A stretch of DNA of 64,000 nucleotides from Eutreptiella sp. 'Long Island Sound 2002' (taxonomy: Eukaryota; Euglenozoa; Euglenophyceae; Eutreptiales; Eutreptiaceae). Where the stretch lies: positions 170,406,476 through 170,470,475 of the forward strand of contig OZ038378.1 of assembly GCA_964036045.1 (NCBI GenBank), written 5' to 3'. The stretch's first letter is position 1. The number at the start of each line of letters is the position of its first letter. Shown here one piece after another: positions 29,357-39,013 of the stretch. A model generated the notes under the pieces. That model was not told the DNA's origin. It saw only the letters and a list, made by a program, of their open reading frames with translations, and ran no database searches. A program made the translations under genes and the position numbers.

Positions 29357-29361
29357 TCAAT
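29357..29361 (+). repeat. Left target-site duplication TCAAT
   Basis: TCAAT immediately before the left TIR. The same five bases follow the right TIR at 35512-35516. Confidence 0.85.
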
Positions 29362-29394
29362 CTTAGGCGGCCGAAACAGGTACGCTTTTGTACC
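29362..29394 (+). repeat. Left 33-bp terminal inverted repeat
   Basis: Begins CTTAGGCGGCCGAAACAGG and ends GGTACGCTTTTGTACC. The inner part is itself an inverted repeat (GGTAC, six bases, GTACC). One mismatch to the right end. Confidence 0.95.
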
Positions 29395-29631
29395 GCTCTT
29401 TTTAAAAAAAAAACACCGAGAAATGATGTGGGCTTTTTCAGTGAATTACCGTGTTTTTTTGACCCTAATTTTTCATGCCTGTTTTTTCAGTTAAAAAAGG
29501 TACCTTTTTCCTGTCGTTGCAACAAACGAGGCTCCTTTGTACTGGTGCGTACGATGGTATCTCAATAACGAAGGACAACCCACTGTGTGTCGCACCTCGT
29601 GTCGGTTATTACGCCCTTTTTTCTGCAACAA

Positions 29632-29815
29632 ATTGCGAGGCCTCGCAATGCAAGGATTCGATTTCATTTGTTTTACCAGAAGCGAATACACGGAAAATTC
29701 GCATACGGGTAATTACGACAAATAACATTCATTTTCGAATGCGAGGCCTCGCATTCCATTTCGAAATATGCGCAAAAGGTATAGTTTCAGGAATCGAAAT
29801 GCGAGGCCTCGCAAT
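29632..29815 (+). repeat. Three palindromes upstream of ORF-A
   Basis: 18-bp copies of AWTGCGAGSCCTCGCAWT at 29632-29649, 29738-29755 and 29798-29815, all with the perfect TGCGAGGCCTCGCA core. The first two are perfect 18-bp palindromes. They lie between the left TIR and the coding region, where promoter or 5' leader DNA is expected. Confidence 0.95.
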
Positions 29816-29816
29816 A

Positions 29817-30198
29817 ATGGAACAGAAAACAATAAAATGGACAGATCCACCAACTACACAGCATGTGCATTCCCTTGATGCGGCGCTGCTGCATGGGCGC
29901 CCATACAGGTCCCGCCGGCATCTCCAGTTTTCATACTGTGGTCACCACTGGCTTCACTGCCCAACAGCTATGGTGGGCGGTTTGCAACTGGGTACCGCAG
30001 ATGTGATCAACAAGAGAAATGTGGGACCAGTTGACCGTTACCAGCAACCGAAAATGCGCACGCGCGGCGGATTTGCGCGCAAAGATCGCTATGCGCGTGT
30101 CGCGTGTGCAGCAATTTGCTGGCACGAAATTTTATTTAACTGTAGCGTTAAAGGAGTCTGTTTTTTGTGGAATTGTATAATAAAATGCACATTTTTGA
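29817..30198 (+). other. Possible 5' exon region of ORF-A, unresolved
   Basis: ORF-A has no ATG near its 5' end, so at least one upstream exon is expected here. Two frames look protein-like: one from ATG 29817, and another, in ORF-A's own frame, from ATG 29878 with a TGA near 30000 and TAA TAA before 30180. I could not choose donor and acceptor sites with confidence; GTATAA near 30174 is one candidate donor. Confidence 0.3.
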
Positions 30199-32028
30199 TT
30201 CTTTTTTGATTTTGCGCGCTTGCTGCGACTGAACCGGAAAACACGGCACTCACTACGGAGGTTGAAAAGCAGACCAGAGAGCCGAGCCGCCAACCACTTC
30301 AAGGAGGAGTTCTTCAACTTATACAAAATTTTGCGCTTGCGATGCATACCCCAGCACCAGGACGAGGACGCCCCGGGTTTTGCCTCTATCGGTTGGCACA
30401 ACAGGCGCCGGTTGCGCAGAACAGGACTGCTGCGGCTGCGCGAGGAAACCATGAAGGAACGGTCCGCGGGAAAGATGCTTGAGACACGGCGATGGACGGA
30501 GAACCGGCAGGTTTGCATCTGGATCGACAATTGTTACATTAAGCAGTATGGAACGCATCCAACGATCCAGGATCAGTCGCAAAATTGCACAGCCCTTTGC
30601 GTCGTTGAGATTCCGTGCAGGTTGCCGTATTTCAGAGGACACCCAACCATAGATGTGCTCATCGGTAGCATCGGCAGTGTGGCTGCAGCGCTTGTCAGAA
30701 CGAAACGGAGCTTTCATGGGATCGTGACAGACCTGGGCCTGCTTGCGGACAGACCTCCAGCAATACCGGGCATCAGGGCGCCGCTTGACATCGTGCGAGA
30801 TCCACTACCAAATCCTGGTTGGAAGCCGCTGCTGCTGAGTACGCATCAGGTATCCTCGTACAAGGGCCTGGTTGAGGTGTTGGACTACATTGCATCGCTG
30901 TCAAACCACACGCACCCCATTGTGCCCATCCTCGTTGATGAGAACATACCCAAAAGATGCCTCAAGTTGCTGTACTCCGACAGAACGCAGCGGTGGAACT
31001 GGCACGAAAAACTGAAAAGGACTCCGGTCTTGTATGGCTGCTGGCATCCCTACAAATACCTTGTGACCAACGTATGGCGCCGCTTCCATTCGCTGTTTGT
31101 GTACTTCCGCTTTGGCCGCTTAGGAGTGGGAAAAACAGTAGGGTCGTACCCAAAGCTCAGAGTCATGGAGAGAACTATTGCCGGCATCCTCAAGTGTGCG
31201 CCGCATTTCCTGCGGCAGTTGCGCAGGAAAGCGAACAGGTTATGGGCTGTTGCCGATCACGGTGGGACGGCGATCGATCGACTGAAGAGTGAAGTATGTA
31301 AAGCAATGTTGAACCTTCTGCAGAACTGGTGTCCGCTTGTCCTCTACTGTGGATTTCTCGTGAGACAATGCAACTGGTCTGGACGGCACCCTGGAACCGC
31401 CATCGACGCCCAAAATGTTTTGCGACTTGTGTTCGTGCTTTTGATTGAGCTCGGGAGGGCTGCAGCTGAGCCTGTTGTGTATGTGAGGACCATCGGTGTT
31501 GCGTTGCTGCATTGGCAGACCTTCAACAGCGGCCTGCCAGGATTGTGCTATGGTGAGGAGTTTGGCGAAGTCATGCTCAGTCGACTGGGGTCCATGAAGG
31601 ATCGACACACTTGGGCTGTCACACCCAGCGACGTCGAAGATTTGTTTGTCCAGTTCTGCCCTGCGAGAATTAACAGACGCCTGCTGGTTAGTGGTTTGTC
31701 CTCCGACATCGAAACCGAGATCCGACAGCGCTTGCACTCGTATGTTATTGACGACCGCCTGAGAATTCGGTACTGTCCTTGGAAGTCGGGTACGTCGACC
31801 ATGGAGAGACACTGGGAGGCTGATCCAGATTTTCCGTCCGACCCTTACAGCGAGCCGGACGTGGACACATACAGAACTCTGTTAACCGATGTTTTGCGTA
31901 CATTCCTGAGGCAGCCCCGGAATTTCTCACCTTCCGTAATACGATTGATGGACAACAAGGTTCCTCTGCGGTCTGATGCGCAGCGCACGAACATTCTGGA
32001 CACAATCTGGGCCTTTACCGATGCATAA
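30199..32028 (+). CDS. ORF-A: candidate RNase H-fold (DDE-like) transposase
   Basis: Open frame from just after TGA 30196-30198 to TAA 32026-32028. The first ATG is at 30451 (525 aa), but the preceding residues (HFKEEFFNLYKILRLR) look coding, so the true start is probably in an upstream exon. Seen: WIDN with an Asp at 30526, LVDENIPKRCLKLLYSD with an Asp at 30937, then GCWHPYKYLVTNVWRRF at about 31036. An acidic residue in a hydrophobic strand, a second Asp, and a G-x-W-H segment recall RNase H-fold transposases of the KDZ/Plavaka type and the related DUF6589 proteins. That resemblance is from memory and weak. The rest is rich in Arg and aromatic residues. Being the longest gene between intact TIRs, it is the best transposase candidate. 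Alternative: an accessory protein of unknown role. Confidence 0.6.
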   Translation, partial: FFFDFARLLRLNRKTRHSLRRLKSRPESRAANHFKEEFFNLYKILRLRCIPQHQDEDAPGFASIGWHNRRRLRRTGLLRLREETMKERSAGKMLETRRWTENRQVCIWIDNCYIKQYGTHPTIQDQSQNCTALCVVEIPCRLPYFRGHPTIDVLIGSIGSVAAALVRTKRSFHGIVTDLGLLADRPPAIPGIRAPLDIVRDPLPNPGWKPLLLSTHQVSSYKGLVEVLDYIASLSNHTHPIVPILVDENIPKRCLKLLYSDRTQRWNWHEKLKRTPVLYGCWHPYKYLVTNVWRRFHSLFVYFRFGRLGVGKTVGSYPKLRVMERTIAGILKCAPHFLRQLRRKANRLWAVADHGGTAIDRLKSEVCKAMLNLLQNWCPLVLYCGFLVRQCNWSGRHPGTAIDAQNVLRLVFVLLIELGRAAAEPVVYVRTIGVALLHWQTFNSGLPGLCYGEEFGEVMLSRLGSMKDRHTWAVTPSDVEDLFVQFCPARINRRLLVSGLSSDIETEIRQRLHSYVIDDRLRIRYCPWKSGTSTMERHWEADPDFPSDPYSEPDVDTYRTLLTDVLRTFLRQPRNFSPSVIRLMDNKVPLRSDAQRTNILDTIWAFTDA

Positions 32029-32108
32029 CATCGGGTTTAGGTTGATTCCCAACTCTGTTGTTGTTGTTGCGCGCACACCGGTGCTTTTGCTCACTACTGC
32101 GTGTTCGG

Positions 32109-32243
32109 AATGCGAGCCCTCGCAATCGTCTTTTCAAAAAGTGCGTTTTTGACTATATGTTGTTACCTTAATGCGAGGCCTCGCAATACGAAGTAGGTAA
32201 TTGAAGGCAAATACCTATAATGTCGATTGCGAGCCCTCGCAAT
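32109..32243 (+). repeat. Three palindromes between ORF-A and ORF-B
   Basis: Copies at 32109-32126, 32170-32187 and 32226-32243. The first and third carry the variant core TGCGAGCCCTCGCA (one central G to C change that breaks perfect symmetry); the middle one is the standard core. They fill the roughly 265-bp gap where the ORF-A terminator and ORF-B promoter should lie. Confidence 0.95.
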
Positions 32244-32293
32244 CAAAAAATAAATATGTACATTTCTCTCCCTTTTTACAGGCCTATTTCAAC

Positions 32294-32567
32294 ATGGCAG
32301 AGAGTTTGACGCCAACAAAAGCGGGTAGAGCATCACCAGACACGTCACAAGTACCATCCACGCAGGAAACGGTGCCAGAGGAGTTCTTGAGGTTCTACAA
32401 GAAGCCTTTGCAGGTGGAGGTTGACGTTGGGAGCCTTTCCATCGACAAGAAGAAGAAGTACGGCCAGATCCGGAAGTATCAACAGACGCGAGTGGACGAG
32501 GTTATGAGAAGTCTTACGGCAAACCCCCCAGAGGAGCCCCTGACCGTGATTGCATGGCAATCACCAG
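32294..32567 (+). CDS. ORF-B exon 1
   Basis: ATG in AACATGG context; donor GTACGT at 32568; ends in phase 1 (..CA CCA G). Encodes a hydrophilic N-terminus, EEFLRFYKKPLQVEVDVG and DKKKKYGQIRKYQQTRVDEV. Confidence 0.75.
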
Positions 32568-34866
32568 GTACGTAACGCGGTCGCACCGCTGCTGTTTCAT
32601 GTTCATCCTCTGAAGCCCATGTTTTCATCTCCAGCCGACGATTGGATCGTCATTGCAAAGCAGCACTGCGTCTGTGCGCTGAAAGCACTCCGAGACCAAC
32701 GTCTTGAGAAGGGCCTCGACCCACCGCAGTGGATGCAAGTGGTGAAGGTCAACCTGTTGAAAACGGAAACCAGTTGGGCTACACGAGTAGCAATCGCCGG
32801 TCGGAAGCAGGCCATCGATCTAGACATCTCCGCCGTGCCACCGTCGGAAGCAGCTGACAACTTCCTTATGCATTTGCGAGATTCGCCGGCTGGGCCTGAC
32901 GAGACTGCAAGGGAACACATTCACCGCACCATCCCGAAAGCCGCGAGCGGAAGTGCCTGGGTTCCACCACAAGTTTCCGACGATGAACTCCAAGTATGTT
33001 CCATTGTCGAATGCGAGGCCTCGCAATCCGAATATGGCTACTCATCCTCCTCATGTACAGAGTTATTCAGTCAAGGCGTTTGGACCGTTCTTCACTTGGG
33101 TGTACCATGCGGAGGACGCAGCGGTGACGTCGCTGGATAATTTCGAGAAGATGGACATGCCGGTGACGATGAACCAGCTGAAGTTCTTGCAGGGTCTGTA
33201 CGAGCCATCGCTCCTACAACGGGTCGCCGCCGACATGTCGAGACCGAAAACGAACATCAAGGAAATCCAGGACCGGGCCTCTGCCTACCAGAAGCAGCAG
33301 TGGATCAATTGGCATTGGGGAGCCGCGCCGAACAACGTTATCCATCCGACCCGCAGTATGTTCCCCTCACAAGCAGGTAGGCAAACACGCAAACAAGGTA
33401 AACGCAACCTTTCCTATGTTTCCAGAGGCGAGTCCGGCAGAGAAGGTACCGTTGCACGACTGGGATGTCCTTTGGTTTCGGATCCCTTTGGGGGCTTGGC
33501 AGTGGAAACCTGAGGCTCCGTCGCCGAAATGGGAAACGCTCAGCAAGGCGCGATTCTGGACGGCAATGGGAAATACTCATCCAAAGCATGGGTCATCAAT
33601 GGACCTTGGTCGCCTGCGTGCACGACTGGCATCACCCTTGACCGAAGTCAAGTCCACGGAGTCCGGAAAAGTGGACGTGGTGAACATTGAGGTCAGTGGA
33701 AAGATGGTCAAAATGCTGTGTGCCCCCTACAAAGATCCGCAAGATCCCCTGAAGTTTTTGGAGGCTCTGGACACCGACATGATCATTCTGAATGCGAATC
33801 TGGCGGACGGTGTAGATCCTGTGAGTCCTGTTGTGATGGCCAAGTTGATTGACAACCCTGAAACTGTGCTTGTGATCTACGGCGAGGTGGAGACTGTTTG
33901 GGACGCCCTGCAAACAGTTTTGGAGACGCCTGGAATTGCGGAGAACGATTAATGGTATGAAAAAGTGCAAGTGTGTTACTGGCTACCTGGCGCAGGCAAG
34001 ATAGGAAAAGGCGGAATTCAAGTTAAAGCACTTGTTCTGCTGGCCGGTGTAAAGATCAAGAAAAAGGTATGCACAACGCTTTCGGATTGCGAGGCCTCGC
34101 AATGCCTTTGCCATCTTGCTACTCCTCACTACAGATCCCACCATACATCGGTTTGGGTCGCCGCGAACGTGATGAACCAGGGTTCATGCCCCTTGTGCTT
34201 TATACGTGGATGGCAACGCTAATGCGGACCAAAGACCGCACGGAGAACGTCATGATCTTCGATCGCGATGTGCACATGGCGGCGAAAGTGGCAGCGTTGG
34301 ATGATCCTCCGCAAGTTTGTTCTCTGCAATTGACCAAACAGAAGCGGTCGGATTGGGCACGGAGCTACCATCACGAGGTGACGCAGCGCGTGCAGGCGGG
34401 AATTGACCAGACCAGGTTGGCGCAGTGCGAGCTCTGGATCTAGTTCGGCATGCCAATGTGGGTTGAGGACGAGCACGTGGGGTATACGCGTCTCGAGGTG
34501 TCCGCGGCAGCAGAGGAACCAAGTCAGCATGCCCATGCAGAAGGTGGAGACGAAGACGTGGATGAGCCTGGGGACGATGACGATGAACCGCTGCTGACAG
34601 GATCTGATCGGCGATCTCCTCGGAAGTCCACGCAGGTTCGGGCGTTCCAGGCTGGCGAGGCAGATGAGGACGAGCCGAGGGCGAGCCAGGCGCCGAAGCC
34701 GAAAAAGCCAAAGACCCACGCGGCAGCTGAGCCGAAGCAGACGACACTGACGCAGCCCGAGGGAGTGAAGAGGACGCTGAGCCTTCCGGATCCGGGAACA
34801 GCAGTGGGCTCGGCAGCGCGGAGCAAGATGTTGGCAGCGGGATTGAAGAAGAAGAAGAAGCCTTAA
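32294..34866 (+). CDS. ORF-B: five-exon gene with ParB/sulfiredoxin-like N-terminus and two in-frame stops
   Basis: Exons 32294-32567, 32635-32993, 33061-33376, 33426-34066 and 34135-34866 join in frame; introns are 67, 67, 49 and 68 bp, phases 1, 0, 1, 0, each GT...AG. The start MAESLTPTKAG follows a TTTTTACAG-like leader. Residues about 50-130 contain QQTRVDEVMRSL, then DDWIVIAKQHCVCALKALRD, reminiscent of ParB/sulfiredoxin-type nuclease folds (h-h-x-x-K/G-Q-H-x-x-x-A-L); this is a weak, memory-based call. The middle is rich in Trp. The C-terminus is strongly acidic (EDVDEPGDDDDEPL) then Lys-rich (GLKKKKKP), suggesting a nuclear protein. TAA at 33950-33952 and TAG at 34441-34443 interrupt an otherwise open frame, so the conservative protein is 491 aa ending at 33952. 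No ATG lies in frame between 33953 and 34066. Confidence 0.65.
32635..32993 (+). CDS. ORF-B exon 2
   Basis: Acceptor TCTCCAG ending 32634, donor GTATGT at 32994, ends phase 0. Carries the IAKQHCVCALKALRD segment on which the ParB-like suggestion rests, and HIHRTIPKAASGSAW near the end. Confidence 0.75.
33010..33027 (+). repeat. Palindrome inside ORF-B intron 2
   Basis: One standard 18-bp copy within the 67-bp intron 32994-33060, between the donor and the pyrimidine-rich acceptor region. Confidence 0.95.
33061..33376 (+). CDS. ORF-B exon 3
   Basis: Acceptor TGTACAG ending 33060, donor GTAGGC at 33377, ends phase 1. SYSVKAFGPFFTWVYHAED then helical, Gln-rich text (QKQQWINWHWG). Confidence 0.75.
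33426..34066 (+). CDS. ORF-B exon 4, contains in-frame TAA
   Basis: Acceptor TTTCCAG ending 33425. Encodes DWDVLWFRIPLGAW and MVKMLCAPYKDPQDPLKFLE, reaching TAA at 33950. The same frame stays open for 38 more codons (WYEKVQVCYWLPGAGK ... KIKKK) to donor GTATGC at 34067, which pairs with an acceptor that restores the frame. Confidence 0.6.
34086..34103 (+). repeat. Palindrome inside ORF-B intron 4
   Basis: One standard 18-bp copy within the 68-bp intron 34067-34134. Confidence 0.95.
34135..34866 (+). CDS. ORF-B exon 5, contains in-frame TAG
   Basis: Acceptor CACTACAG ending 34134, phase 0. IPPYIGLGRRERDEPG ... RSDWARSYHHEVTQRVQAG is followed by TAG (34441-34443), then, in the same frame, MPMWVEDEHVGYTRLEV, an Asp/Glu-rich tract and a Lys-rich end before TAA 34864-34866. 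The final part could alternatively be a separate ORF starting at ATG 34450. Confidence 0.6.
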
Positions 34867-34906
34867 AGGGCGTTGCAGTCCTATTTTGCGTGATATGTTG
34901 TCTCGC

Positions 34907-35168
34907 ATTGCGAGGCCTCGCATTCCAGTTTAGGCAATTTGCCATTTCAGCTCTGTTTTCAGAGGCGTAATTTGGAGATGACGATTATACTGACCCTAAG
35001 GCAACAGTCAGTATTGCGAGGCCTCGCATTCCGAAAGCCTCACGTCTCGACGCACAGAATGTACTGATACTCTGCATTCTGTTTTTGCTTGTTTCTGAGT
35101 GCTCTGAAGCTGTGTGTAATTGCAGTGAATTGCGTTGTTGCATGTCTCGTATTGCGAGGCCTCGCAAT
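34907..35168 (+). repeat. Three palindromes downstream of ORF-B
   Basis: Standard-core copies at 34907-34924, 35013-35030 and 35151-35168, spaced 106 and 138 bp start to start, between the last exon and the right TIR. No gene was recognised in 34867-35478 apart from these. Confidence 0.95.
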
Positions 35169-35478
35169 ACGAATAGGAAAATGGTGTCATTTTGCAGCAT
35201 TTTGGAAACGAGAGGCGTAAAAAGTGAATTTTTAAGGCAGGAGAAAAAAGCATGCAGAGGAGAACAACAAAAAACAAGGTTTTCTAGTTCGAGAACCCCC
35301 AAAATGTGGTGCATTTTAGAGAAAAGTGGGTAAAATGGCAAAAATTGTGAGAGCTTTTTTGGAGGAAAATCACGCATTTTTGTGGGTAATTGGGCCAAAA
35401 AACTGAGTAGTCAAATTTTGTGGTAGAAAAAAATAGGTAAATCGGGCAAATTACCCCTACCAAATTTGCAGAGACCCT

Positions 35479-35511
35479 GGTACAAAAGCGTACCTGCTTC
35501 GGCCGCCTAAG
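35479..35511 (-). repeat. Right 33-bp terminal inverted repeat
   Basis: Reads GGTACAAAAGCGTACC then TGCTTCGGCCGCCTAAG on the plus strand, complementary to the left end with one mismatch. Confidence 0.95.
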
Positions 35512-35516
35512 TCAAT
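35512..35516 (+). repeat. Right target-site duplication TCAAT
   Basis: Matches the five bases before the left TIR. Confidence 0.85.
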
Positions 35517-37099
35517 GGAGGTAAAAAAGGGGATCCAATGAAGGAGAACAAGGGCACTACCCTGTTGTGGCAACAAAGGCTTGCGGCTTCCTCCCCCAGC
35601 CCCGCTCCCGTTCCAAACTATGCAAATGGATGGAAGAGTGGTTCTGGAGGGTAGTCACCATTCTTGATCTATCGCCAAGCTATGCAAAAGGAGTGATTGC
35701 GGAGGGTGACAACCGTTGTCACTTTATGGCCAAGCTATGCAAAAGTCCTAAACTAATACAGTCCGTACACCTTCTGTAGATTAGAAAGGGCCCGCTGGCA
35801 CATAGGCCATATAAATGCCAACAGACACTTCAATGGCCACACAACAGAAGACCACCTTCACCTTCACCCATGCCAAAAGGCATGCAAACACAAGACGGTG
35901 ATTGGTACATGATTTGTTCACACCCATGTTCCCAATGGAGCACAAGGCTATTGGTAGACTGAATTACAAATGAAAAACCAATACACATACAAATGACTGG
36001 ATGCCCAGGCTCAAAAAGAGGTTCCATGGTGAGCTGGTGTAAGAAAGGATACCCAGAATGCCCAAACTTCCCCCAAATCAAGCCGTGTGGGTTCAAGTGG
36101 GCAAACACTGACAAAATAGATTTGCATGACCTTATCTGGCTTCCAAGTTCGTCACCAACCCAAATCTTACCCCCCCTGCCCCTTGTCCAAGCAATGCCTA
36201 TGTCCAAGCAACACTAGGCGTTGGTTGCGTCAATCTCTGGTCATTTACCGTTGCTTGGACGGTGTGTGTATGTGTGTGTGTGTGTGTGTGTGTGTATCTG
36301 CACTACTTTTGTACCAAAGTACATTGGGCCCAAATTAATATGGCCCCTATGGCTGCTGTATGCCCCCAGAGTCAGAGTCGCGACGACAGTGTAGCTAGGC
36401 CCCTGGAGGGCAATGACGTAACCCTCCACAGACTTGACACTTGACACTTGATCCTTATGCTTGTCAGTGGTACCGGCTGTGCACCAGTGACTATTGTTTC
36501 ACCAACCGATGGCAGGTTGGCCCTCCTGTGGCTTCCTCCATGCACGCTTCTGTAGGTGGGTGGTTTTCAGGTTGTTCCCGGGATAAACACAGTAATAATT
36601 GGCTCTGTGCGAAAACGCCCCCTATGAAATGCAACCCGCTGATTCTTCTTGGCCTTCATTCTTCTACGTGCTCCAGTAGCACCTTGGGATGCGTGTCATG
36701 TGCGCTACCACACTGAGCTGTGGGACAATCGTAGCACTGTACTGCTCTGATTCCTGATTCTGAGAGCTCTCTCGAGTACCGTCTGGTAAGAGGGCTATGC
36801 CAGCTTACCCAAGTCTGAACCCCCCCAAAAATTATGGCCCCTATGGCCCCTGTAGCTTAGACAAGACCAAAAGCAGGTCACAAACGATATGGCACAGGGC
36901 GCCGGCATGACGTATTTCATGGTGCCCAGCTGGCCTTCACGGAACCCTCCATCCGCCCTCTCATTCCAAGGCTGTAGGGCCCGGGGCATTTGCCAATCCC
37001 CGTCGATGCTCAGGACGGGTTCATTGCTGGGTTGGAATTCTGTCATGTGATTGCCGCCATCCTGGCGTTTCTGCCACCACAAACTGTACAGAATCCCAG
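35517..37099. other. Intergenic, no gene recognised
   Basis: Holds a (GT)n tract at 36262-36296 and one copy of the GGTGGGTGGTTTTCAGG...GCGAAAACGCCCC repeat (36542-36628). Opposite-strand ORFs near 36800-37700 are antisense shadows of the gene that starts at 37100. Confidence 0.6.
36542..36628 (+). repeat. Third copy of dispersed GGTGGGTGGTTTT...GCGAAAACGCCCC repeat
   Basis: Starts GCACGCTTCTGTAGGTGGG exactly like the copy at 27987 and ends GTGCGAAAACGCCCCC, but has a single CTGTGC unit where the 28-kb copies have several. Confidence 0.85.
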
Positions 37100-39013
37100 A
37101 TGCAGCCCGCTCCGCCGCATGCGCACGCCCCACTTGTGGTCTGCCCCGGCGCAACCCGGCACGTATATGACACACACACCACCCTCGCCCCGGCGCCTGC
37201 CCCCAATCCTTGGTCCCTGCCAGCGCTGTCTGTGGCAGTTCTGGGGGTTGTGGGGGCGTGCTACTTGCTGACCCTGCCCTCCAGCAGTTCGTCCCTCTGG
37301 ACGCTGACGACCCCTCGGGTCGCACAGTCCCTCCCCCACGCGAGCGAGTCCCGGTCGCGCCTGCACACCTCCCTCAACAGAGACATCGGTAGTCTGCTGA
37401 GCCCCACCGCCCGCAAAAGCCCCGGCATCCCTCGGCCCCGCCCGACCCTCCCAACCGGAGCCCATGACGCAGGGGTCCCCGCCTCCGCCGCTCTCAATGG
37501 TCCCCATGGCCATGAGTCGCTTAGCACAGTAACAGGTGCCGTATCCCATGCTGCCGTGCCCGTTGGTGGGCTCCTGGGCATAGGAGTGCTGGTTGCTTAC
37601 TTCTTTGGCTTGTGGCACAAGTCCCAAAGACAGGCCGATCCTGTGGTGGACCTGCAGCCGCAGCCCCTCGCCATGTGCAGTACCACAAGCACACACAACA
37701 CAAATGGTGGTGAATCTTTGCCCACGTGGGAATCATTAGCTCCGCTGGTGCCTACCGCACAGGACCCTGGACCTGAGGTGTTGGGGATTGCCCTGGATCA
37801 GCCCCCTGCCCAATCTGGTCGCCTGATTTTGTACCGGGACCGCAATGGCTGGTGCCCATACAGTGAGCGTGTGTGGCTGGGGATGATGGAGAAGGGCCTC
37901 GAGTTTGATGAGGTGCTCATCAATCTTCAGGGCCGCAAGCCCAAGTGGTACTATGATGAGGTGCGCACCGGAAACACTCCTGCCATTAGGTTTCCGGATG
38001 GCACCGTGATGTGGGAGTCTCTGGATCTGCTGAAGGAGTTGGATGTCCGATACCCTGCCCCAGAGTACCCGGCCCTGTTCCCAACGGATCCGGATGAAAG
38101 GGCTGAAGCTGAGGCACTCATTCAGGCCTTCTCTTCTACAATGCCCTCAAATTCAAGGCCCTCTTCAAGGGCTGCATTTTTATTCCGGGGATGGGGTGGC
38201 GATCTGATTCCCAAAGGTGAGATTGTACAGACATTTGATCGCCTGGAGAAGCTGTTGGCAAAGCATCCTGCAGGCCCCTTTTTCATGGGCGCACAATTTA
38301 CTGCTGTTGAATGTTGCTGGGCTCCATTTCTGGAGCGGTACACTGTGCAGGTGCCGCTGCTGCACGAGGGCATTGACTTGACTGATGCCTCCCGGTGGCC
38401 TCTCCTGAACAAGTGGTTCCAAGGCATGCACGAGCAAGTCTCGACCTACCTTCCTCGAGTGAAGGGGGACAGCCACACATGGTCCTATGCCTTGGCCGAA
38501 GCTGTGGATGATGCCCGTCGGTACCCCGGCTTGCGTGCTCTGATGAAGGGAGACCAACGTCATGTGGCCGCTGAGCTTGAGGTATTAGATGCTGGTGATG
38601 GATCCGTGTGGGATGAGTACTGCAAAGCGCGGCCAGGAGTAGCCGCCACGCCGGCCCTTGAGGCCGCGGCACGGGTACTCAGGAACCATGAGGCTATCAA
38701 AGAGGATGCCCTTGCTGGATGCGCCACGCAGGGAGTCACTATTGCTCTGGTCGACAAGGTCCTTCGATGCCTCGTCGTCTTGCTCACCTCGGAATATATG
38801 GCGGACCCCTGTTCTCAATGCAAAAGTACTCTGTTGTTGGCGGAAGCCCAGACGCTCTGTGTTGAGAATATCAGCCCGGAAGAGGGCCCTTTGGCAGCAG
38901 ACGTGGCGCGGTTCTTGGCGGGACGGCTCTGCGTGCCGAGGGATATGGGATCGCTACCGGCAGCACATTTCAGAGCTTGCTTGGCGCTGCTCCGTGACTC
39001 TTTGACGGATTAG
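37100..39013 (+). CDS. Glutathione S-transferase-like protein with N-terminal targeting/membrane region
   Basis: An intronless 637-codon gene. Residues about 240-330 form a thioredoxin-fold GST N-domain: RLILYRDRNGWCPYSERVWL with a CPYS active-site motif (Cys near residue 252, the omega/lambda/DHAR-like type), then GNTPAIRFPDGTVMWESLDL with the glutathione-binding cis-Pro and Glu-Ser. A helical GST C-domain follows (LEKLLAKHPAGPFFMGAQFT, about 385-470). The N-terminal 240 residues hold two hydrophobic segments (about 40-59 and 153-172) separated by Ser/Pro/Arg-rich sequence, suggesting an organelle transit peptide and/or membrane anchoring. The last ~150 residues are helical with several Cys and have no match I recognise. 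Residues about 345-365 (SSTMPSNSRPSSRAAF) look unlike a GST helix. ATG 37100 is chosen as the first in frame; an internal start is possible. Confidence 0.82.
   Translation: MQPAPPHAHAPLVVCPGATRHVYDTHTTLAPAPAPNPWSLPALSVAVLGVVGACYLLTLPSSSSSLWTLTTPRVAQSLPHASESRSRLHTSLNRDIGSLLSPTARKSPGIPRPRPTLPTGAHDAGVPASAALNGPHGHESLSTVTGAVSHAAVPVGGLLGIGVLVAYFFGLWHKSQRQADPVVDLQPQPLAMCSTTSTHNTNGGESLPTWESLAPLVPTAQDPGPEVLGIALDQPPAQSGRLILYRDRNGWCPYSERVWLGMMEKGLEFDEVLINLQGRKPKWYYDEVRTGNTPAIRFPDGTVMWESLDLLKELDVRYPAPEYPALFPTDPDERAEAEALIQAFSSTMPSNSRPSSRAAFLFRGWGGDLIPKGEIVQTFDRLEKLLAKHPAGPFFMGAQFTAVECCWAPFLERYTVQVPLLHEGIDLTDASRWPLLNKWFQGMHEQVSTYLPRVKGDSHTWSYALAEAVDDARRYPGLRALMKGDQRHVAAELEVLDAGDGSVWDEYCKARPGVAATPALEAAARVLRNHEAIKEDALAGCATQGVTIALVDKVLRCLVVLLTSEYMADPCSQCKSTLLLAEAQTLCVENISPEEGPLAADVARFLAGRLCVPRDMGSLPAAHFRACLALLRDSLTD

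Follow-up and report, generated by a model that had tools for sequence, protein, structure and literature searches.

Scattered through the non-coding parts of a DNA transposon from the euglenophyte Eutreptiella sp. 'Long Island Sound 2002' are eleven copies of an 18-bp palindrome. We think it probable that they are cis-acting sites, putatively bound by a transposon-encoded protein acting as a symmetric dimer, most likely the product of the second gene, ORF-B, and that they serve transposition or its control. We infer all three parts of this statement (that protein binds the sites, that ORF-B is the binder and that the role lies in transposition) from sequence comparison. The window we analysed is the whole stretch of 64,000 nucleotides taken from contig OZ038378.1 (positions 170,406,476 to 170,470,475 of the forward strand), and all coordinates below are positions within it unless a locus is named.

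Eleven palindromes and where they sit

A reading made from the sequence alone had counted eleven palindromes, nine with one core and two with a variant. Scanning the whole window on both strands with up to three mismatches gave the same answer: 22 strand matches at 11 places, all of which fit AWTGCGAGSCCTCGCAWT. The expectation from shuffled sequence was 0.17, and 22 matches were reached in 0 of 100 shuffles. The core is TGCGAGGCCTCGCA at nine sites and TGCGAGCCCTCGCA at two (32109 and 32226). The claim that none lies outside the element also held, since even three mismatches turned up no further place in the window. The palindromes and the element that carries them are as follows.

29362-35511: DNA transposon with ORF-A and five-exon ORF-B, 33-bp terminal inverted repeats and 5-bp target duplications
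29632..29649: palindrome 1, 5' of ORF-A; intact in 11 of 15 scorable copies
29738..29755: palindrome 2, 5' of ORF-A; intact in 9 of 15 scorable copies
29798..29815: palindrome 3, 5' of ORF-A; intact in 11 of 16 scorable copies
32109..32126: palindrome 4, between the genes, C-centre variant; intact in 8 of 17 copies
32170..32187: palindrome 5, between the genes; intact in 9 of 17 copies
32226..32243: palindrome 6, between the genes, C-centre variant; intact in 15 of 17 copies
33010..33027: palindrome 7, ORF-B intron 2; intact in 11 of 17 copies
34086..34103: palindrome 8, ORF-B intron 4; intact in 10 of 17 copies
34907..34924: palindrome 9, 3' of ORF-B; intact in 8 of 16 scorable copies
35013..35030: palindrome 10, 3' of ORF-B; intact in 13 of 16 scorable copies
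35151..35168: palindrome 11, 3' of ORF-B; intact in 7 of 13 scorable copies

This is the placement first described: three sites 5' of ORF-A, three in the intergenic spacer, one in intron 2 and one in intron 4 of ORF-B, and three 3' of ORF-B. Nor does any site fall in an exon, a claim that stands on gene models held in place by conserved GT..AG ends and by the introns of a sister family. Coding sequence makes up about 68% of the full-length element, and the chance that all 11 sites would avoid it is about 3e-6. Each site is a dyad without a loop between its arms, with a weak preference for TTCG before it and CGAA after it.

Conservation among copies

For conservation we turned to a 17-row alignment of near-full copies of the element, taking mean pairwise divergence as the measure. 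The copies are related by descent, so the shuffle values that follow are a guide and not exact probabilities. Wherever the relevant stretch is present, the palindromes lie at the same places in all 17 copies, and 112 of the 176 scorable sites are intact; absence from other copies, one of the outcomes that would have refuted the sequence-only reading, is not what we found.

Outside CpG columns the palindromes diverge by 0.048, against 0.091 for other non-coding sequence. Introns outside the palindromes stand at 0.075 and the terminal repeats at 0.069, while ORF-B stands at 0.053 and codon positions 1, 2 and 3 of ORF-A at 0.060, 0.048 and 0.077, which puts the palindromes level with the second codon positions of a gene. 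In CpG columns the figures are 0.107 for palindromes and 0.158 for other non-coding sequence. When eleven 18-mers were placed at random in the non-coding sequence, divergence as low was seen in 0 of 5000 trials for all columns and 1 of 5000 for non-CpG columns; without rows L052 and L053, whose 3' ends are incomplete, it was 0 of 5000 for both. With the same two rows dropped, 10 of the 11 sites diverge less than their own flanks. This lower divergence, together with the core that survives in the introns of the sister family described next, supports the earlier proposal that selection rather than drift has kept the sites, and we regard selection on them as supported by the comparison.

The same core in sister families

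The genome holds a sister family, which we call B (the window element belongs to family A). Its ORF-A is 36% identical to that of the window element. The ORF-A relatives at 36-43% identity belong to this genome. A search with P0021, one of the ORF-A relatives, gave 8464 first-look candidates, of which 68 matches were scored. Of these, 48 had an identical score and most family B frames are open, so family B was active in this genome very recently. The copy at L091 (1418-8274) is bounded by 30-bp terminal repeats that begin with CTTAG, is flanked by a CTTAA duplication, and contains an ORF-A and a five-exon ORF-B of 878 residues that is 26% identical to the ORF-B of the window (E 4e-53). L092 to L095 are 91-94% copies of the family. 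L091 carries ten sites built around AGTGCGCGAGGCCTCGCGCACT; the centre is changed in two of them and an arm is broken in one. Three lie 5', two are intergenic, three are intronic (a single site in each of ORF-B introns 2, 3 and 4), and two lie 3'. The arms GTGC and GCAC are both present at 9 of the 10.

All four ORF-B introns lie at matching positions in the aligned A and B proteins. When introns 2 and 4 of A are compared with those of B, no local match scores better than the 12-bp core itself, GCGAGGCCTCGC, at 24. Without the core the scores fall to 12 and 11, like those of introns 1 and 3 (11 and 8), and beyond the core and the splice-site consensus little is common to introns 2 and 4 of the two families. 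The core, as almost the only match, was thus preserved through a divergence that erased nearly everything else. Outside the core the arms differ, being AWT in family A and (A)GTGC in family B.

Genome-wide searches, which covered 2.28 Gb in 2205 contigs, found the 12-bp core 13,991 times, against 54 for the reversed word. We surveyed the arms of 23 core sites in 20 short stretches chosen among the first places listed: 4 of the 23 had B arms, 16 had WTGC/GCAW on both sides, 1 had it on one side and 2 had others. Core sites whose arms match none of the three types occur at L100 and L114. The third arm type, WTGC, that of family C, has 6488 forward matches genome-wide and a control count of 0. 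One family C array (C1:3677851-3682434) flanks a piece of ORF-A that over about 160 residues shares 55% identity with B and 38% with A. The W-T of the arms is common to A and C, and the extra GC to B and C; this sharing is in line with C being nearer to B, as far as three families can tell. All three families have either G or C at one of the two centre positions, as would suit a pair of half-sites that tolerates change in the middle. The same genome also contains more distant ORF-A families, whose open frames reach about 770-845 residues.

Genome-wide distribution and a probable gene-less offshoot

The 18-mer pattern itself was matched 1616 times forward and 1630 times in reverse, mostly at shared places, and its reversed control 0 times. 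We took 20 test loci among the listed matches, all on contig C1, after excluding clusters that already had element-like spacing. All 20 lie in element-related sequence, 14 of them being 75-96% identical to the element over at least 200 bases. The worry attached to the first reading, that the 18-mer might be common independently of the element, is eased accordingly: the word is common, yet every locus sampled on this one contig belongs with the element.

The other 6 loci form one short family that carries four palindromes and is 80-91% mutually identical in the overlaps. A terminal repeat resembling the window element's is included in four of the six stretches; L079 (10-853) includes both, measuring 844 bp end to end with a target duplication matching at 4 of 5 bases. 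L084 also represents this short gene-less family with its element-like terminal repeats and four palindromes. Three of the six match about 140-160 bases beside the right end of the element at 75-78%; apart from the palindromes, the rest has little likeness to it. The short family probably branched off from a related element, losing the genes and keeping the sites. Family A-type terminal repeats and four sites in something that has no genes fit a role in mobility rather than in gene expression alone.

What might read the palindromes

Each palindrome, as we picture it, would be bound by a homodimer of a protein encoded by the transposon family itself. A conserved part of that protein would read the shared core GCGAGGCCTCGC, and a family-variable part would read the outer arms (AWT in A, (A)GTGC in B, WTGC in C), so that each family could recognise its own copies. 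ORF-A would be the transposase and act on the terminal inverted repeats. Our leading candidate for the reader, ORF-B, would bind the element at its 10-11 places and either bring the ends together or control ORF-A and transcription; synapsis, repression and protection from silencing are all possible roles. The sites would be confined to spacers and introns because coding sequence cannot carry them. What makes the palindromes look like homodimer sites is a combination of features: the dyad has no loop and stays the same throughout a family, its core persists and its arms change between families, and it is present in a gene-less offshoot. ORF-B seems the likelier reader because the sites reach far from the ends and because Spm uses a separate DNA-binding product (PMC2613891).

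Several points weigh against this reading. Site 35151 diverges no less than its flanks do. L117, the 501 bp between the genes of a more distant relative, has no palindrome, so the palindromes may not be a feature of the whole lineage. In the gene-less family those sites that are not perfect carry 1-4 mismatches, as in decaying copies, and part of that family may be plain inheritance from the right end of the element: its first site lies 342 bp from the end, and site 11 of the full element lies 343 bp from it. As for ORF-B, searches against Pfam, PHROGs, NCBIfam and PDB sequences recognised no DNA-binding domain. Its library matches fell below the cut-offs (Pfam E at least 0.015, PHROGs 0.42, NCBIfam none), a two-sequence profile against PDB sequences gave chance-like matches (the best a catenin, E 0.008), and a structure prediction for its N-terminal part from 33 rows reached a pLDDT (predicted local distance difference test) of 33 and was not used. 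With no domain recognised and structure predictions failing for both proteins, we prefer ORF-B to ORF-A mainly by analogy.

One competitor is ORF-A itself: the transposase would bind the palindromes through a dimeric end-recognition domain, much as piggyBac transposase does with its cysteine-rich domains, leaving ORF-B some other role. We hold this to be doubtful but possible. The ends of piggyBac carry 19-bp palindromes bound by the two C-terminal domains of a transposase dimer (PMC11707139), and the gene-less family has terminal repeats as well as palindromes; on the other hand, sites in the middle of an element and in its introns are unlike an end-recognition array, and a second gene has been kept in families A and B alike. 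It is distinctly unlikely, to our minds, that the elements have adopted sites of a host factor for transcription, chromatin or replication. Such a factor could account for an identical core in three families of one genome. A single host factor reading the core would not maintain arms that stay the same throughout a family (11 of 11 window sites, 9 of 10 in L091) yet differ from one family to the next, and the A-type 18-mer loci we sampled, 20 out of 20, derive from elements.

Perfect dyads can also fold, and two of the sites are intronic, so one might suppose that the palindromes act as hairpins of RNA or single-stranded DNA, for instance in splicing or transcript stability. At site 34086, L044 and L051 even have both paired positions changed with pairing retained. 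Those paired changes fall on fast-mutating CpG bases, however, and at site 29738 of L051 the same two positions are changed with pairing lost. The arms leave no loop, family A intron 3 has no site, and sites occur 5' of ORF-A, near the 3' end and in a family without genes. We would be surprised if hairpins were the answer. Least probable by far, and largely refuted, is that the 18-mer is a tiny mobile or converting unit that came to lie in non-coding sequence by chance and drift. Many near-identical copies amid otherwise unrelated flanks are what suggests it, but the sites occupy the same places in 17 copies and in the homologous introns 2 and 4 of A and B with differing arms, they diverge less than their flanks in all but one case, and conversion tracts would have carried flanks along.

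There is a bolder form of the reading in which ORF-B binds the palindromes, and we think it unlikely. In a lineage of eukaryotic two-gene transposons that was placed in none of the superfamilies tested, the fixed 12-bp dyad core and family arms, maintained in introns too, would make up an element-wide code of self-identity; ORF-B would nucleate on the sites and then coat or clamp the DNA as ParB does, perhaps for telling own from foreign copies, as a shield from silencing in a CpG-depleted genome, or to join distant ends.

Comparison with known systems

ParB-parS of bacteria is a system of palindromic sites scattered near a gene. By eye, the N terminus of ORF-B has something of a ParB/sulfiredoxin-like order (GQIR; GQH in family B), a likeness that found no support in Pfam, PHROGs, NCBIfam or a PDB-sequence profile search and that we retain as an idea. 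The target site of piggyBac is TTAA, and the 5-bp duplications of our element vary in sequence from copy to copy.

A close parallel in architecture is En/Spm, a CACTA element with a transposase and a DNA-binding product, TNPA, in which many copies of a short motif are cis-determinants of transposition (PMC2613891). Non-autonomous copies are mobile if the cis sites are kept, and in one soybean CACTA element pairing of the repeats can produce 2 palindromes in the left border and 12 in the right; two motif subtypes within soybean are attributed there to diverging binding proteins (PMC2613891). The likeness lies in two products and many short cis motifs, 11 here in family A and 10 in family B. In contrast, En/Spm motifs are direct repeats (12 bp in En-1) confined to the borders, pairing across spacers into stem-loops, whereas each site here is on its own a perfect or near-perfect dyad of 18-22 bp, and the sites run through the whole element, introns included. 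The termini are CTTAG rather than CACTA, and the target duplication is 5 bp rather than the 3 bp of EnSpm.

Most members of the CMCT clade have CACTA or CA..TG termini, and CMCT transposases have C(2)C and H(3-4)H between the second D and the E (PMC12730594). Our element has neither kind of terminus, and C(2)C occurs in 0 of 4 ORF-A proteins and H(3-4)H in 1 of 4. Termini and missing C(2)C speak against the CACTA/CMCT clade as described there. Target duplications are given as 2-5 bp for the wider CMCT clade, 3 bp for EnSpm and 8 bp for KDZ (Zisupton) (PMC12730594), so 5 bp is outside EnSpm proper and inside the wider CMCT range; EnSpm proper, piggyBac and Zisupton, as characterised, are excluded by it. 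It does fit hAT forms with 5-bp duplications, which are known (PMC12730594), although ORF-A has no Pfam match and hAT is set beside the element by description only. In piggyBac, a protein dimer binds 19-bp palindromes at the ends, and the related transposons piggyBac and piggyBat have unrelated palindromes (PMC11707139). The lengths are similar to ours, but those palindromes sit at the ends and are read by the transposase, while here there are 10-11 per element, some of them in introns. By analogy the element may be called Spm- or piggyBac-like in having repeated cis sites; we file it in neither. In the literature searched there was no account of this element or its palindrome, and the core word appeared as text only in one unrelated paper.

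CACTA elements already provide examples of short cis motifs that recur within an element and are read by an accessory protein, and the pace at which such motifs and their readers change together has been named an open matter there (PMC2613891). New here are the spread of the sites into introns and the family dialects, in a lineage that matches no library used. Because three families in one genome have a common core and differing arms, the reader and its recognition rule become directly testable by swapping arms. The intronic sites suggest that transposon introns can be held for signals at the level of DNA.

The element and its genes

The element is a terminal inverted repeat DNA transposon (class II), with the terminal repeats and target duplications of that class. 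The termini read CTTAGGCGG and CTTAGCCCA.

29357..29361: left target site duplication, TCAAT
29362..29394, + strand: left terminal inverted repeat, 33 bp, beginning CTTAGGCGGCCGAA; 97% complementary to the right end
30199..32028, + strand: ORF-A, probable DDE transposase, first part deleted in the window copy
32294..32567, + strand: ORF-B exon 1
32568..32634, + strand: ORF-B intron 1, 67 bp, without palindrome; GT..AG in 16 of 17 copies
32635..32993, + strand: ORF-B exon 2
32994..33060, + strand: ORF-B intron 2, 67 bp, containing palindrome 7; GT..AG in 15 of 17 copies
33061..33376, + strand: ORF-B exon 3
33377..33425, + strand: ORF-B intron 3, 49 bp, without palindrome; GT..AG in 16 of 17 copies
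33426..34066, + strand: ORF-B exon 4; the window copy has a TAA in frame at 33950-33952
34067..34134, + strand: ORF-B intron 4, 68 bp, containing palindrome 8; GT..AG in 16 of 17 copies
34135..34866, + strand: ORF-B exon 5; the window copy has a TAG in frame at 34441-34443
35479..35511, - strand: right terminal inverted repeat, 33 bp
35512..35516: right target site duplication, TCAAT

In the alignment, judged by eye, both ends are present in 13 of the 17 near-full copies (in L051 the first four bases are altered). A perfect 5-bp duplication flanks 11 of these 13; L047 matches at 4 of 5 bases and L044 has none. Among the both-ended copies the final base of the element is changed in L040 and L045. 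Observed/expected CpG is 0.99 in the element and 0.555 in the window to its left, which makes the element either young relative to CpG decay or a late arrival. Neither gene of the window copy is intact: its ORF-A lacks, at the start, about 157 bp present in other copies, and where its ORF-B has the two stop codons, 16 of 16 other aligned copies have sense codons. If it is still mobile, it would depend on proteins supplied by other copies.

The gene model of ORF-B is backed by its kept GT..AG ends and by the four introns at aligned positions in family B. ORF-A has 28 relatives in the protein collection. Identity over the aligned part is 67-93% for 21, 36-43% for five and 31% for two, these last two coming from other sources. 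It matches no Pfam family and no PDB sequence up to E 1, and its relatives P0021 and P0027 have no NCBIfam match; both proteins of the element match no family library used. We call ORF-A a probable DDE transposase because its relatives have WIDN-, VDEN- and EE-like stretches in fitting order (a D in WID or WFD, a D in the VDEN-like stretch, then EE), spaced in the four proteins measured by 133-140 residues from D to D and 205-273 from D to E. A structure prediction of ORF-A from 14 rows was poor (pLDDT 41) and was not used. No relatives of ORF-A were confirmed in prokaryote genomes or viral contigs. In the viral contigs a 14-mer occurs at one place each in 31, and the 18-letter word TGCGCGAGGCCTCGCGCA at one place in one, which we take as chance. 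A piece of family B ORF-B, P0032, turned up at 98% identity on a 5.6-kb metagenome contig, so the host or a close relative of it has been sampled in an environmental metagenome.

Elsewhere in the window, searches for RNA families and tRNAs found none. Just outside the element lies a tandem pair of a 55-bp unit, 75% alike (35636-35745), and further on a long open frame (36911-39013) that by eye looks like a glutathione S-transferase-like protein with an N-terminal extension.

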